In this document: piece after piece, positions 20,457 to 29,675 of the stretch
Layout of the letters: the number at the start of each line of letters is the position of its first letter
Position numbering within the stretch: the first letter of the stretch is position 1
IMG/VR virus record: IMGVR_UViG_3300032282_001051
Location: 1-34,111 of that record
Strand: one strand, 5' to 3'
Source: a virus
DNA: 34,111 bases
Notes under the pieces: generated by a model
Told to the model about the DNA's origin: nothing
Database searches by the model: none
The model's input: only the letters and a program-made list of their open reading frames with translations
Translations under genes and position numbers: made by a program

Positions 20457-20593
20457 CACCTGAAGACGAAGAATTTGAACGCCTAGAGCGTGAGGCCGCT
20501 ATCCGAGAGCGCAAACGCCAAGAGGATATGCGCGAACTGCGGGAAAAATTAAGGGAAGAATACGACAGCGGCTTGGACTCACCACCTGATTGA
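20453..20593 (+). CDS. Short charged helical protein (46 aa)
   Basis: ATG at 20453 overlaps the previous TGA and has AAGGAG a few bases upstream. The product is almost entirely Glu/Arg/Lys: MTPEDEEFERLEREAAIRER, KRQEDMRELREKLREEYDSG, a single charged helix or coiled coil. Its TGA (20591-20593) lies within the -35 box of the next promoter. It is the last gene of the early rightward transcript. No function recognised. Confidence 0.55.
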   Translation: MTPEDEEFERLEREAAIRERKRQEDMRELREKLREEYDSGLDSPPD

Positions 20594-20617
20594 CAAGCCC
20601 TAAAAACACCTTAAAAT
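20590..20617 (+). promoter_or_regulatory. Strong sigma70-type promoter at start of the 20.6-22.6 kb cassette
   Basis: TTGACA (20590-20595, perfect) and TAAAAT (20612-20617, five of six) are 16 bases apart. The predicted start near 20624 lies after the ATG at 20616 and before the ATG at 20649, which supports the latter as the true start of the first gene. This may be where a new transcription unit for the packaging genes begins. Confidence 0.7.
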
Positions 20618-20648
20618 GAAATCTCCCCTAACCTTGCAAGGAAAGAAA

Positions 20649-20864
20649 ATGGGCAAAATGGATTCCACCAAAGGAACAAAAAGCATGACCGGTGCAACCC
20701 CTCCCAAGGGCGCAGCTTCCTCGGATAAATCCGGTGAACGCATGAGCCGTATGGTTGGCGGTGTCGCAATGGGTAAAGAAGACGCAGTCGGTAAGGACAA
20801 ACTGTTCAATACAGGCCGTACCGAAGGCGTTTGCTACACTCACGACCGCAGCGAGTACCGCTAA
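20649..20864 (+). CDS. Conserved small phage protein, MGKMDSTKGTKSMTG type (71 aa)
   Basis: I choose the ATG at 20649 (AAGGAAAG upstream, downstream of the predicted transcription start) over the in-frame ATG at 20616. The product, MGKMDSTKGTKSMTGATPPK, GAASSDKSGERMSRMVGGVA, MGKEDAVGKDKLFNTGRTEG, VCYTHDRSEYR, is basic, Gly/Ser/Thr-rich and probably disordered at the N-terminus, with a conserved-looking end. Short proteins of this sequence type occur just upstream of packaging genes in related phages. Unknown function; a basic protein made from a strong promoter could bind nucleic acid. Confidence 0.7.
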   Translation: MGKMDSTKGTKSMTGATPPKGAASSDKSGERMSRMVGGVAMGKEDAVGKDKLFNTGRTEGVCYTHDRSEYR

Positions 20865-20873
20865 ATAGCGAAA

Positions 20874-20899
20874 CCCCCAAGGTGGACAGACCTTGAGGG
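20874..20899 (+). other. Hairpin upstream of the Zn/AT-hook gene
   Basis: CCCCCAAGGT (20874-20883) and ACCTTGAGGG (20890-20899) pair over 10 bases with one mismatch and a GGACAG loop. No T-run follows, so it is not a standard terminator. Confidence 0.55.
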
Positions 20900-20908
20900 C
20901 TTCTAACC

Positions 20909-20927
20909 TCAACTGAAAAGGAGTTGA
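20909..20927 (+). promoter_or_regulatory. Hairpin holding the Shine-Dalgarno of the Zn/AT-hook gene
   Basis: TCAACT (20909-20914) pairs with AGTTGA (20922-20927). The loop and 3' arm contain AAGGAG, the ribosome binding site of the gene starting at 20932. The fold would partly occlude this site, as in translational operators. Confidence 0.5.
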
Positions 20928-20931
20928 AGCT

Positions 20932-21153
20932 ATGGAACATTGTAGTGACTGCCGATACTTTGTCGATCACACCCAAATGGGGCAGTGTCGAAGGTATCCC
21001 ACGTATCAAAACCGCCATCGCAACGAATGGTGCGGAGAGTTAGCAGTTGTCGTAGAGACTTCACCCTCACCGGCTGGGGGTGCTTTTTTGCCTGTCATTG
21101 ACGTTCCTCAACTTGAGAAACGAAAACCTGGAAGGCCAAAGAAAAATGCTTAA
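20932..21153 (+). CDS. Zinc-binding protein with C-terminal AT-hook (73 aa)
   Basis: The N-terminal half has four cysteines in MEHCSDCRYFVDHTQMGQCR and NEWCGE (C4, C7, C19, C34), a recurrent phage 'CxxCxYF...GxCRRYP....WCGE' zinc-binding pattern. The C-terminus ends PQLEKRKPGRPKKNA, in which KPGRPKK is a classic AT-hook for the minor groove of AT-rich DNA. The two parts are joined by SPSPAGGAFLPVIDV, and exactly this linker is encoded by a strong intrinsic-terminator sequence (21062-21089). The start has AAGGAG inside a hairpin. A DNA- or RNA-binding regulator is a reasonable reading. The stop overlaps the GroES-like gene start. Confidence 0.72.
   Translation: MEHCSDCRYFVDHTQMGQCRRYPTYQNRHRNEWCGELAVVVETSPSPAGGAFLPVIDVPQLEKRKPGRPKKNA
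21062..21089 (+). terminator. Intrinsic terminator inside the Zn/AT-hook gene
   Basis: CACCCTCA (21062-21069) pairs with TGGGGGTG (21075-21082), 8 bp including one G-T wobble, with a CCGGC loop, followed by C and six T (21084-21089). This is a complete Rho-independent terminator oriented rightward and lying within the coding sequence, about 64 bases before its stop codon. Translating ribosomes would be expected to prevent the hairpin from forming. Confidence 0.75.
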
Positions 21154-21400
21154 ACCTCTTAAAGACCGTGTGGTAGTAAAACCACAAGTGCGCCATATCA
21201 GCGACATTATCTTGGTCAACAATAAAGAACCCTTCAACGAAGGCACAATTGTCGCTGTTGGCCCCAACGTCAGAGAATGTAAAGCTGGCGACTTTATTAA
21301 ATATGGTAATGGCGATTACCTAAACTGGCCCACCCATCGCATTGATGGGCAGGATTATCAAATCATTCAGGAAGCAGACATCTGCGCGGTATATGAATAA
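21146..21400 (+). CDS. GroES-like co-chaperonin (Cpn10), 84 aa
   Basis: The frame is open from 21080, but the ATG at 21146 overlaps the previous stop and gives the Cpn10 N-terminus MLKPLKDRVVVKPQ (GroES has M-N-I-R-P-L-H-D-R-V). The mobile loop follows (about 14-31) with hydrophobic I21-I22-L23, equivalent to the I-V-L tripeptide by which GroES binds GroEL. Then GTIVAVGPNVRE (GroES 'GEVLAVG'), CKAGDFIKYG ('VKVGDIVIFN') and the end IQEADICAVYE ('MSESDILAIVE'). All core elements are present, somewhat shorter than the 97-residue GroES. No groEL is in the window, so it should cap host GroEL, as T4 gp31 does, probably to fold the coat protein. It precedes the terminase and head genes. Confidence 0.87.
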   Translation: MLKPLKDRVVVKPQVRHISDIILVNNKEPFNEGTIVAVGPNVRECKAGDFIKYGNGDYLNWPTHRIDGQDYQIIQEADICAVYE

Positions 21401-21545
21401 AGAAAACCTTGAAAAAAAGATTGTTGAATTGCAAAATCAAGCCAAACAACACGAAGTTGCAGCCATTCAGATCAGTGGCGCAATTCAAATCTTGCAACAA
21501 CTCCTAAAGGAGATGGAAGATGCCCCTCAAGAAGTCCAAGAGTGA
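21393..21545 (+). CDS. Small coiled-coil protein (50 aa)
   Basis: ATG at 21393 lies within the last codons of the GroES-like gene; the open frame reaches 21342, but only this start avoids a long overlap. Product: MNKENLEKKIVELQNQAKQH, EVAAIQISGAIQILQQLLKE, MEDAPQEVQE, a clear amphipathic coiled coil with a central 'AIQISGAIQ.L' segment, a type common in phages just before packaging genes. Function unknown. The end overlaps the next gene by 26 bases. Confidence 0.65.
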   Translation: MNKENLEKKIVELQNQAKQHEVAAIQISGAIQILQQLLKEMEDAPQEVQE

Positions 21546-21660
21546 AAAAGCCTTTAAAGAAAACATCAAAACTGAAGTGAAAGCCGGTAAGCCGGTCAAG
21601 CAGTCAGTGGCGATTGCGTATGCTGTGAAACGTGAAGCAGAAAAGAAAGCAAAGAAGTGA
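21520..21660 (+). CDS. Small Lys-rich conserved phage protein (46 aa)
   Basis: ATG at 21520 has AAAGGAG about 8 bases upstream; the stop is TGA at 21658-21660. The product, MPLKKSKSEKAFKENIKTEV, KAGKPVKQSVAIAYAVKREA, EKKAKK, follows a widespread phage/bacterial pattern 'M.LKKGKS...F..NI..E..AGKP.KQAVAIAY...R'. It is very basic, with no known biochemical role that I can state; nucleic-acid binding is plausible. It lies one base before the ADP-ribosyltransferase-like gene. Confidence 0.72.
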   Translation: MPLKKSKSEKAFKENIKTEVKAGKPVKQSVAIAYAVKREAEKKAKK

Positions 21661-21661
21661 T

Positions 21662-22642
21662 ATGCCTACCCTAGCCGATCTATACAGCGCCATTGGAACT
21701 GCAAGACGCAAAGCCAGTGACGTAGTAGCAAACCCAATGACCAGCTTACAGCAGATGGTTGGGTATGCAAATGACCGCGCTAGGGTATTCAACGAGTTAA
21801 ATCGTGAAGCTACGGATGAATTGCGGCAAACAGGCAAGTTTGGCCCAAAGAACATGGAAGTAGCCATGCAGCTTGCTGAAGGCTACAACCCTGTTGGCAT
21901 GACTGTTTACCACGGTAGCCGCCATCCCTTTACCAAGTTTGATAAATCAAAAATTGGCACTGGCGAAGGCAATCAAAGCTATGGCTATGGTCTGTATGTG
22001 GCAGAGCATCCTGAAGTGGCAAGGGAATACACCACAGCAGGAATGAGCATTGACCCTGCCAAAACCAAATACAAAGGCCGAAACATCGAAACCTGGTATG
22101 ACGAGGCACAACGTAAGCAGGATATGGCTCACCGCCAAAAGGCCAGCCCTGAAAAAATAAGAGAAATCAATGCCGAATTGGGATTTTGGGAAAGTCTAAT
22201 GACTCGCCAGCACCCTCAATCTATCATTGATGAATACTTAGACCCTAACTACGGTGGCCCTGAGTTCCAAAATTTTGCCAAGAACATCGACATCAACAAG
22301 TTTAAAGGCGTCATTGATAAGCCAAACTTCTACAAAGTTGACTTGCCTGACCCGCATATAGCCAATATGTTGGATTTTGATGCGCCTATCGCTCAACAGA
22401 CCGCCCAAATCAAAGCCCTCGCAAAACAATACGGAGTACCTGAAACTGACTTAGGTGGCGACTTACTCTATAAGGTAGGCAAAGGCTCAAAAGGCGCTGA
22501 AATCATGCAACAGCAGGGAATCACAGGCGTCAAGTATTTTGACCAGCTAAGCCGTGATGCGAACAAAGGAACAAGAAACTTTGTCGTGTTTGACCCTGAA
22601 CACCTGTCAATTCTTGAGCATAACCAACAACCACTCAAATGA
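21662..22642 (+). CDS. ADP-ribosyltransferase-like phage protein (ART-PolyVal type), 326 aa
   Basis: The frame is open from 21632; I choose ATG 21662 because the upstream part overlaps the Lys-rich gene. Residues 1-78 are a helical N-terminal region ending FGPKNMEVAMQLAEGYNPVG. Then TVYHGSRHPFTKFDKSKIGT (H84 in Y-H-G-S), EGNQSYGYGLYVAEHPEVAR, EYTTAG (Tyr in the G-x-G-x-Y-x-A segment), a helical insertion, and the end GITGVKYFDQLSRDANKGTR, NFVVFDPEHLSIL with a candidate catalytic Glu (E313). This H-Y-E-like arrangement with 'GLYVAE...A.EY' and 'G(V/I)KY.D..SR....TRNFV.F.PE' is the ADP-ribosyltransferase fold of phage polyvalent-type proteins. It would transfer ADP-ribose from NAD to a protein or nucleic acid; target unknown. 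It precedes the small terminase gene by an ATGA overlap. Confidence 0.75.
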   Translation: MPTLADLYSAIGTARRKASDVVANPMTSLQQMVGYANDRARVFNELNREATDELRQTGKFGPKNMEVAMQLAEGYNPVGMTVYHGSRHPFTKFDKSKIGTGEGNQSYGYGLYVAEHPEVAREYTTAGMSIDPAKTKYKGRNIETWYDEAQRKQDMAHRQKASPEKIREINAELGFWESLMTRQHPQSIIDEYLDPNYGGPEFQNFAKNIDINKFKGVIDKPNFYKVDLPDPHIANMLDFDAPIAQQTAQIKALAKQYGVPETDLGGDLLYKVGKGSKGAEIMQQQGITGVKYFDQLSRDANKGTRNFVVFDPEHLSILEHNQQPLK

Positions 22643-23058
22643 GCGAAACAGCCGAAAAACGCCCTGTAGGAAGACCAACTCTTTACAAACCTGAGTATTG
22701 TGAAGAAGTCATTGCTTTGGGCAAACTCGGCAAAAGCGTAGAGCAAATCGCTTCCAAGTTAGGGTTTTCCCTACGCACAATGTATCTTTGGCGTGATGAA
22801 CATGAAGATTTTATGCACGCCTTGGAAGAAGCGAAGCAACATGAATTAGCTTGGTGGGAAGATCAAGCTGATGCGTACATGGTGGAAACCAAAGAAGGCC
22901 CACGCTTAAACGCAAGTATTTGGTCACGCTCAATGGCTGCACGATTCCCTAAGAAGTATCGAGAACAAGTAAAGCAAGAGATCACAGGCGCAGATGGCGC
23001 ACCTTTGTTAACAGGTATTCAAGTAACATTTATCAAACCTGAGACTTCACAAGATTGA
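22639..23058 (+). CDS. Terminase small subunit
   Basis: The 139-residue product starts with a disordered basic segment (SETAEKRPVGRPTLYKPEYC), then a helix-turn-helix (EEVIALGKLGKSVEQIASKL, GFSLRTMYLWRDEHEDFMHA), a helix pair for oligomerisation (LEEAKQHELAWWEDQADAYM, RLNASIWSRSMAARFPKKYR) and an acidic-basic tail (EQVKQEITGADGAPLLTGIQ). This is the typical DNA-recognition subunit of headful-packaging terminases: it binds the pac site and regulates the large subunit. The 'GRPTLYKPEYCEE' start and 'FPKKYREQVKQEITG' are common in this family. It overlaps the ADP-ribosyltransferase-like gene by ATGA; the large-subunit gene follows after the inserted endonuclease gene. Confidence 0.9.
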   Translation: MSETAEKRPVGRPTLYKPEYCEEVIALGKLGKSVEQIASKLGFSLRTMYLWRDEHEDFMHALEEAKQHELAWWEDQADAYMVETKEGPRLNASIWSRSMAARFPKKYREQVKQEITGADGAPLLTGIQVTFIKPETSQD

Positions 23059-23073
23059 AGGTATTGATATAAT
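23046..23073 (+). promoter_or_regulatory. Extended -10 promoter of the GIY-YIG gene
   Basis: TATAAT (23068-23073, perfect) preceded by TGA (TGN extended -10, 23065-23067) and TTCACA (23046-23051, five of six to TTGACA) 16 bases upstream. The -10 ends 6 bases before the ATG at 23080, so the transcript should start at or near the A of ATG, a predicted leaderless mRNA. Confidence 0.68.
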
Positions 23074-23079
23074 GAACAC

Positions 23080-23652
23080 ATGAACGCTAAATTCTGTGTT
23101 TACATACATAAGCGCCCGAACGGTGAGCCTTTTTACATTGGAAAAGGTTTGCTAAGTAGGGCGTTTGACTTTGCTCCTAGCAGGCGAACAGAGTGGCACA
23201 AGAACATTGTGAGCAAATATGGACGGGAAAATATCATTGTCCAAGTCATCCCTTGTATGTACGAGAAAGAGGCTTTTGAACTTGAAAAAGCTCATATAAA
23301 TATTGCGCGTTTAGCGGGTCATAAGCTGGCAAATTTGACTGATGGCGGTGAAGGTGTTGCGGGTCGTGTAATGACAGAGGCGCAAAAAGTCGCATTGGAA
23401 AAAGGCCGCAGGATTGGGAAAAAGGGCACAAAAGTCCCAAGACCGCAGTTAGAAAAATGGATACGGAGTGAAGCCGGTAAAGCTCACTTAAAAAAACTTT
23501 CTGAAATAGGCAGAGCTGCGCTTCATAAAGAACGTGAACAAGTTTGTATCCAGTGCAATACAACATTTTTGACGAAAAGCAGCAAAGCAAAATGTTGCAG
23601 TCGTTTGTGTGAGCAAAGACATAGACGCGCTAGGCAAAAAAATGAAAACTGA
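23080..23652 (+). CDS. GIY-YIG homing endonuclease with C-terminal zinc finger
   Basis: The 190-residue product begins with the catalytic domain: FCVYIHKRPNGEPFYIGKG (VYI and YIG elements, residues 7-9 and 19-21), R27 in LLSRAFDF, and Glu in YEKEAFELEKAHI (E69 the likely metal ligand, matching R27/E75 of I-TevI). A linker follows (LANLTDGGEGVAGRVMTEAQ, with GRRIGKKGTKVP and KLSEIGRA segments recalling NUMOD-type DNA-binding repeats), then a zinc finger CIQCNTTFLTKSSKAKCCSR, CEQRHRRARQ. It cleaves alleles lacking the insertion and spreads by recombination. It lies exactly between small and large terminase genes, overlaps the latter by about 11 bases and has no Shine-Dalgarno, in line with the leaderless prediction. 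Confidence 0.88.
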   Translation: MNAKFCVYIHKRPNGEPFYIGKGLLSRAFDFAPSRRTEWHKNIVSKYGRENIIVQVIPCMYEKEAFELEKAHINIARLAGHKLANLTDGGEGVAGRVMTEAQKVALEKGRRIGKKGTKVPRPQLEKWIRSEAGKAHLKKLSEIGRAALHKEREQVCIQCNTTFLTKSSKAKCCSRLCEQRHRRARQKNEN

Positions 23653-29603: not shown

Positions 29604-29637
29604 AAAGCCACTCTCATAAGGGGTGGCTTTTTCTTTT
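29604..29637 (+). terminator. Intrinsic terminator after the head genes
   Basis: AAAGCCAC (29604-29611) pairs with GTGGCTTT (29623-29630), followed by TTTTTCTTTT ending at 29637. It lies between the small head-associated gene and the next structural genes, so it should limit read-through from coat genes into tail-fibre genes. Confidence 0.85.
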
Positions 29638-29675
29638 CAAACAGTTAAAATCTTTTCAATCTCTAAGGAGAAATC

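Follow-up and report, generated by a model that had tools for sequence, protein, structure and literature searches.

Does a phage regulate the transcription of its packaging genes from inside a conserved protein gene? The question is raised by a locus in a virus contig of 34,111 bases (IMG/VR record IMGVR_UViG_3300032282_001051, positions 1 to 34,111; hereafter the window), in which a small four-cysteine protein gene (gene B) contains a terminator-like hairpin (tB) and is preceded by a structured leader RNA. Promoter pA and a small gene (gene A) lie upstream, and genes for a GroES-like protein and terminase lie downstream. Terminators of the intrinsic type that fall within genes are usually dismissed as noise. 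tB carries a signature of long-term selection, with codons changing in pairs and rare codons locked, and offers a natural, sequence-defined case for asking whether phages use ribosome-polymerase coupling to set the timing or the dose of their packaging genes. Related loci are referred to below by L numbers. The elements at and within gene B are as follows.

20865-20935, + strand: structured leader RNA of gene B (from covariance model R1 and covariation), with a closing stem 20865-20869/20929-20933 in this phage
20870-20903, + strand: hairpin H1, a few nucleotides past the gene A stop codon, with covarying stems and no T-run in the window
20909-20927, + strand: hairpin H2 (TCAACT-GAAAAGG-AGTTGA), with the gene B Shine-Dalgarno (SD) sequence in its loop
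20918-20923, + strand: gene B SD, AAGGAG, read from the sequence
20932-21153, + strand: gene B (73 amino acids), with a HiPIP-like four-cysteine domain (PF01355, below cutoff), a variable linker and a basic tail
21062-21089, + strand: terminator tB, with an 8-bp stem (21062-21082), a loop of 5, a C and T6 (21084-21089), 130-157 nt past the gene B start

Selection on the putative terminator inside gene B

An intrinsic terminator within this coding sequence had been proposed from the window alone (the original prediction), and its stem and T-run are present as described. The hairpin is G+C-rich, is followed by the T-run and has a calculated stability of -11 kcal/mol. Only 4.5/1000 random synonymous recodings of the gene were as stable with the same T-run, and a scan of 168 kb of related loci under similar criteria returned only 3 other sites. 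tB was found at a near-constant place, between the cysteine domain and the basic tail and with 5-7 T, in 42 distinct sequences; these share ancestry, so that the counts below are not independent events and p-values overstate the case. Across the 42 sequences 97.6% of cells in the stem were paired, as against 91.4% after shuffling and at most 59% when slid. The stem was kept by paired codon changes, in which Val..Ala gives way to Ile..Val or Ala..Ala (GTC/GCG, ATC/GTG and GCA/GCT); the window version is TCA..GCT GGG. Compensating changes were of several kinds. The check suggested with the original prediction, whether silent changes in close relatives had destroyed the hairpin or its T-run, revealed no such loss.

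The same codons were used to weigh a protein constraint (a P....G.F motif) or chance, with no role for the RNA. The motif does show conservation of its own, in Pro, Gly and Phe codons whose positions are fixed. This explanation is strongly disfavoured and was judged highly improbable, since third positions are locked to rare codons, pairing codons change together and random synonymous versions rarely match. Alanine is encoded by GCG in 36/36 cases at one stem position (3/163 elsewhere in gene B) and valine by GTC in 29/30 (23/165 elsewhere), and within tB proline and phenylalanine are always CCC (42/42) and TTT (42/42). RNA-level selection on tB is well shown.

The position of tB, exactly at the boundary of the cysteine domain and the basic tail, would also suit an element for RNA processing, stability or polymerase pausing, or one yielding a gene B product without the basic tail, and polymerase pausing is possible at hairpins with a U-run. 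Such functions were considered quite unlikely. The stem, the loop size and the 5-7 T directly after it follow the pattern of an intrinsic terminator, and non-stop messages would be wasteful.

In a first sample tB had seemed confined to the window and its nearest relatives; this was overturned by a gene B profile search, which brought in a second large group. tB is absent from the L013-type, the L028-type and several other groups. A fusion of gene B to GroES through frameshifting or slippage of the polymerase at the T-run was rejected, the GroES frame being closed between the T-run and the GroES start in 29/41 sequences. At the same spot in gene B, L159 and L182 carry an unrelated hairpin, GACCGTGGGAAG..CTTCCTGCGGTC followed by TTTTCT (-17.8 kcal/mol); an in-gene terminator may have arisen there independently.

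The two-hairpin leader RNA

A hairpin at 20909-20927 had been predicted to hold the gene B SD. The hairpin (H2) is present; it is half of a two-hairpin leader and not the whole element, and the SD lies mostly in its loop, not in the stem. H1, missed by the original prediction, is the stronger of the two (fold of 20862-20905, -16.5 kcal/mol, z -3.45). For the whole 76 nt leader z was -3.5, and 0/200 shuffled sequences were as stable. H2 by itself was about as stable as shuffled sequence, its support coming from covariation; a presented site or a tuned start therefore describes it better than a strong block does. The closing stem of the window leader takes in the A and U of the gene B AUG, and the SD overlapped the hairpin loop in 68/69 folded leaders.

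A MAFFT alignment of all 37 leaders gave no consensus fold. This was resolved with a covariance model (R1) of 18 co-aligning leaders, from which the window was excluded, applied to the rest. Within the training set 90.5% of cells were paired (79.3% shuffled), 9 pairs had changed on both sides, and the covariation score was 0.241 (0.064 shuffled). R1 matched the window once, at 20864-20931 with 39.7 bits, the rest of the genome remaining at background. Most held-out relatives were recovered, including one metagenome-assembled genome (MAG) contig each of Burkholderiales and Methylococcales and two Manatee Spring phages; the leaders of L002 and L003 have a similar fold, yet were missed. In an alignment of 64 relatives, which was fitted to R1 and hence leans towards the model, 93.1% of cells were paired (63.3% shuffled, at most 52% when slid), two-sided changes were seen at 18/20 pairs, and the covariation score was 0.616 (0.140 shuffled).

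A model-free check was made on H2. All of its 16 distinct inner arm pairs are complementary, against 45% when the arms were dealt anew; the arms had been picked as pairing arms, and the fairer figure is the contrast with the redealt 45%. The outer pair of H2 tracks the base after the start codon, being complementary in 57/60 leaders (C-G 42, A-T 8, G-C 7). RNA-level selection on the leader is well shown. No Rfam family reached its gathering threshold in the window, the best permissive matches falling far below cutoff, and literature searches found no description of the element. The leader is an RNA element with good support but no Rfam entry. It belongs to a group of freshwater phages and is present in many viral contigs and in phages MW202674 and MW202520.

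The leader was absent where another gene separates genes A and B, and the assignment of H1/H2 to the end of gene A alone or to the start of gene B alone was rejected, as the hairpins are lost if a gene intervenes. H1 was also rejected as a general terminator, a T-run following it, in the scan made, only in L006 and L183. Pairing of the 3' arm of H1 as an anti-SD alternative was complementary by eye in the window, not in the L013 group, and is no family feature. The triplet GGA, as in CsrA/RsmA-type sites, occurs in 23/31 distinct H2 loops and is absent from the others.

A proposed attenuator and the rival readings

The elements between which control would operate begin at the promoter.

20590-20617, + strand: promoter pA, TTGACA-16-TAAAAT (11/12 match), at the stop codon of the preceding open reading frame (ORF)
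20627-20641, + strand: gene A leader motif CTAACCTTGCAAGGA, with palindromic core TTGCAA, holding the gene A SD
20649-20864, + strand: gene A (ATG at 20649), a small Gly/Lys-rich protein; it adjoins the leader in the examined loci that carry the leader

pA is exactly as it had been predicted. Sites with 11/12 matches are expected by chance 0.25 times per strand of 34 kb, and L001-L005, L009, L011 and L023 share the -35 and a good part of the -10 in front of the same small gene; close relatives have TTGACA and an A/T-rich -10 before gene A. The gene A leader motif is near-universal in relatives with this promoter arrangement, in the variants CCTTGCAAGG and CTTTGCAAAG. The palindrome CCTTGCAAGG carries the SD, and the L006 version is CTTTGCAAAG. 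The gene A protein had no match in Pfam or PHROG. A scan for promoters between tB and the small terminase gene found none that was clear, the best being two 9/12 matches.

tB is proposed to be a translation-sensitive attenuator between pA and the GroES and terminase genes, a reading held with moderate confidence. Transcription would start at pA and pass through gene A into the structured leader. There H2 would present the gene B SD in its loop, and in most relatives the start codon would be paired into the base of H2, so that the leader structure might tune how readily ribosomes initiate on gene B. A ribosome promptly trailing the polymerase on gene B would block the tB hairpin, and the GroES gene, the small genes, the terminase gene and probably those beyond would be transcribed. 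With no prompt ribosome, transcription would end inside gene B. We infer from the sequence that tB stops transcription, that ribosomes prevent it from doing so and that initiation on gene B is tuned by the leader. The chances are about even that the late transcription unit of this P22-like phage, which holds the packaging genes, has its regulated head in this region.

Terminators located later in coding regions are suppressed by translating ribosomes, and less so within the first 100 bp, where coupling is not yet established (PMC4824070). Suppression of coding-sequence terminators by ribosomes on the nascent RNA was reported by Wright and Hayward (1987), as cited in PMC4879669. tB lies inside gene B where its ribosomes could cover it, and at 130-157 nt its effect should vary with the delay before a ribosome initiates on gene B. 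Ribosome suppression of later terminators, the position of tB and the placement of the leader at the gene B start together are the reason why an attenuator is favoured; by analogy with these studies it is plausible that translation of gene B holds tB open.

Several observations weigh against attenuation. Many relatives keep the order gene A, leader, gene B and GroES without tB, and tB is kept where gene B has no H1/H2 and is apparently translationally coupled to an inserted gene. At 130 nt tB is barely beyond the zone in which terminators escape ribosomes, and the C between stem and T-run possibly weakens termination. The shared ancestry of the tB sequences and the ordinary stability of H2 count on the same side. 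The original prediction had joined the SD hairpin and the terminator in a single control loop; as tB and the leader are each found in loci lacking the other, they are not one obligatory device. In the close relatives L186, L187, L189 and L190 a gene inserted immediately past the gene A stop codon (TAAAAAATGG) replaces the leader, and gene B starts in an ATGA overlap.

The persistence of tB where gene B has no H1/H2 leader, its absence from many relatives and the fact that no regulator was identified would also fit a fixed dosage valve, that is, a partly efficient terminator that senses nothing and simply leaves less RNA of the packaging genes than of genes A and B. This is possible, though on the unlikely side. 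Ribosomes would by default suppress a terminator kept in a translated frame at a cost in codon freedom, and such a valve would be better served by an intergenic site.

The position of the stop differs among lineages: in gene B here, at H1 in L006 and L183, before GroES in L067 and immediately past the promoter in the L040 group. This variation lends some support to a second main rival, in which tB (and H1 where a T-run is present) would be a stop for a phage antiterminator, polymerase modified at pA reading through it late in infection, as happens in lambdoid late genes. The P22-like character of the phage and the conserved motif in the first nucleotides past pA agree with antitermination. It was nevertheless rated unlikely, as many relatives have no terminator at all from pA to GroES, and an in-gene terminator is not required by lambdoid antitermination. 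No Q- or N-like protein was recognised among the upstream genes tested, where small divergent genes could escape detection.

In L040, L049, L072 and L086 a hairpin resembling an intrinsic terminator (GCACTACAAGAGTAGTGTTTTTT) lies in the gene A leader immediately past the promoter, an arrangement that recalls an early attenuator or a site of antitermination. In another group (L017, L026, L037, L052, L077 and others) a strong hairpin with a T-run, also terminator-like, recurs at a shared position some 690 nt ahead of gene B and perhaps marks the end of the upstream operon.

The attenuator reading would place the leader and tB among translation-coupled attenuation systems and phage RNA structures over ribosome-binding sites. 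As in pyrBI-type attenuation, an intrinsic terminator in or near a translated frame would be governed by the distance between ribosome and polymerase; here the frame is the gene of a conserved four-cysteine protein and not a leader peptide. The terminators placed in coding sequences by Wright and Hayward (1987; as cited in PMC4879669) and by Li et al. (PMC4824070) share ribosome suppression and a position-dependent strength. Those described were artificial constructs, whereas tB is natural and kept by selection. The structures of T4 gene e, I-TevI and the gp43 operator (PMC3014915) likewise lie over a translation start, for which initiation control is here proposed; in this leader the SD is in the loop and the start codon at the base, the stem sequence is free to vary, and a second conserved hairpin precedes it. 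The novelty lies in a terminator kept by selection within the gene of a conserved protein, together with a leader family that has no Rfam entry.

The gene B protein and the gene neighbourhood

Gene B had been labelled a Zn/AT-hook gene, which was not confirmed. Its best resemblance is to HiPIP (high-potential iron-sulfur protein, PF01355), weak but repeated: the window protein scored 15.5 bits, short of the curated cutoff of 22, and 10/14 gene B members matched the profile (best E 0.0015). Four cysteines (C4, C7, C19 and C34) are invariant and agree with HiPIP in spacing and surrounding residues; gene B matches only the C-terminal part of the profile. One GenBank record carries a HiPIP annotation. 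An AlphaFold2 model of gene B (mean predicted local distance difference test score 52.5, predicted template modelling score 0.23) was poor and was not used for fold search, and a profile search of PDB gave no match. The AT-hook profile (PF02178) gave a single weak match among the 14 gene B members, and a GRP core in a basic context is not conserved. The window tail ends in GRP; many relatives have KRKYERK-type tails instead, and the tail codons double as the SD of GroES. For these two reasons an AT-hook function is doubtful.

The gene B product had further been proposed to repress its own translation by binding the SD hairpin. Nothing points to this, the protein being HiPIP-like and its GRP tail replaced in many relatives. 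That the protein binds H2 of its own leader according to the state of an iron-sulfur cluster, tB then making packaging transcription iron-sulfur- or redox-responsive, was thought very unlikely; if true, it would constitute an iron-sulfur checkpoint on phage assembly.

The genes downstream of gene B were identified by profile searches.

21146-21400, + strand: GroES-like co-chaperonin gene (PF00166, 36.4 bits against a cutoff of 21.1; PHROG 3188), its start overlapping the gene B end
21396-21545, + strand: small ORF, an open frame with a weak PHROG 580 match
21520-21660, + strand: small basic protein (PHROG 2423, E 3e-17)
21662-22642, + strand: tentative ADP-ribosyltransferase (ART)-like protein of polyvalent-protein type (PF18760, E 1e-5; DUF3990, E 8e-5; both below cutoff)
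22639-23058, + strand: terminase small subunit (PF20901, above cutoff; PHROG 309, E 1e-23)

The predicted GroES-like and small terminase genes were thus upheld by matches above cutoff, the latter also by PHROG 309. The ART-like gene is suggestive only, a resemblance being there and neither profile reaching its cutoff. Upstream of the region, profile matches identified ERF and YqaJ recombination genes; downstream, the GroES-like and small terminase genes are accompanied by large terminase, P22-type portal and P22-type coat genes. Two complete phages from a freshwater spring, Manatee Spring (MW202674 and MW202520), have the same order of RusA, small gene, four-cysteine gene and GroES, with terminase next after GroES in MW202674. 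Among 80 GroES relatives the order gene A, leader, gene B, GroES was kept in nearly all loci that were long enough. From this neighbourhood the locus is read as the conserved junction of recombination and packaging genes of a P22-like phage, and not as the takeover cassette that had been suggested.

An ORF at 23080-23652, homing-endonuclease-like, is inserted between the two terminase genes. Just ahead of it, at 23046-23073, is an 11/12 promoter with TG before the -10, which may serve the large terminase gene as a promoter of its own. On the + strand of the window no terminator-like site is more stable than that at 29604-29640 (-15.9 kcal/mol), which is intergenic and follows the P22-like coat gene and a small ORF.

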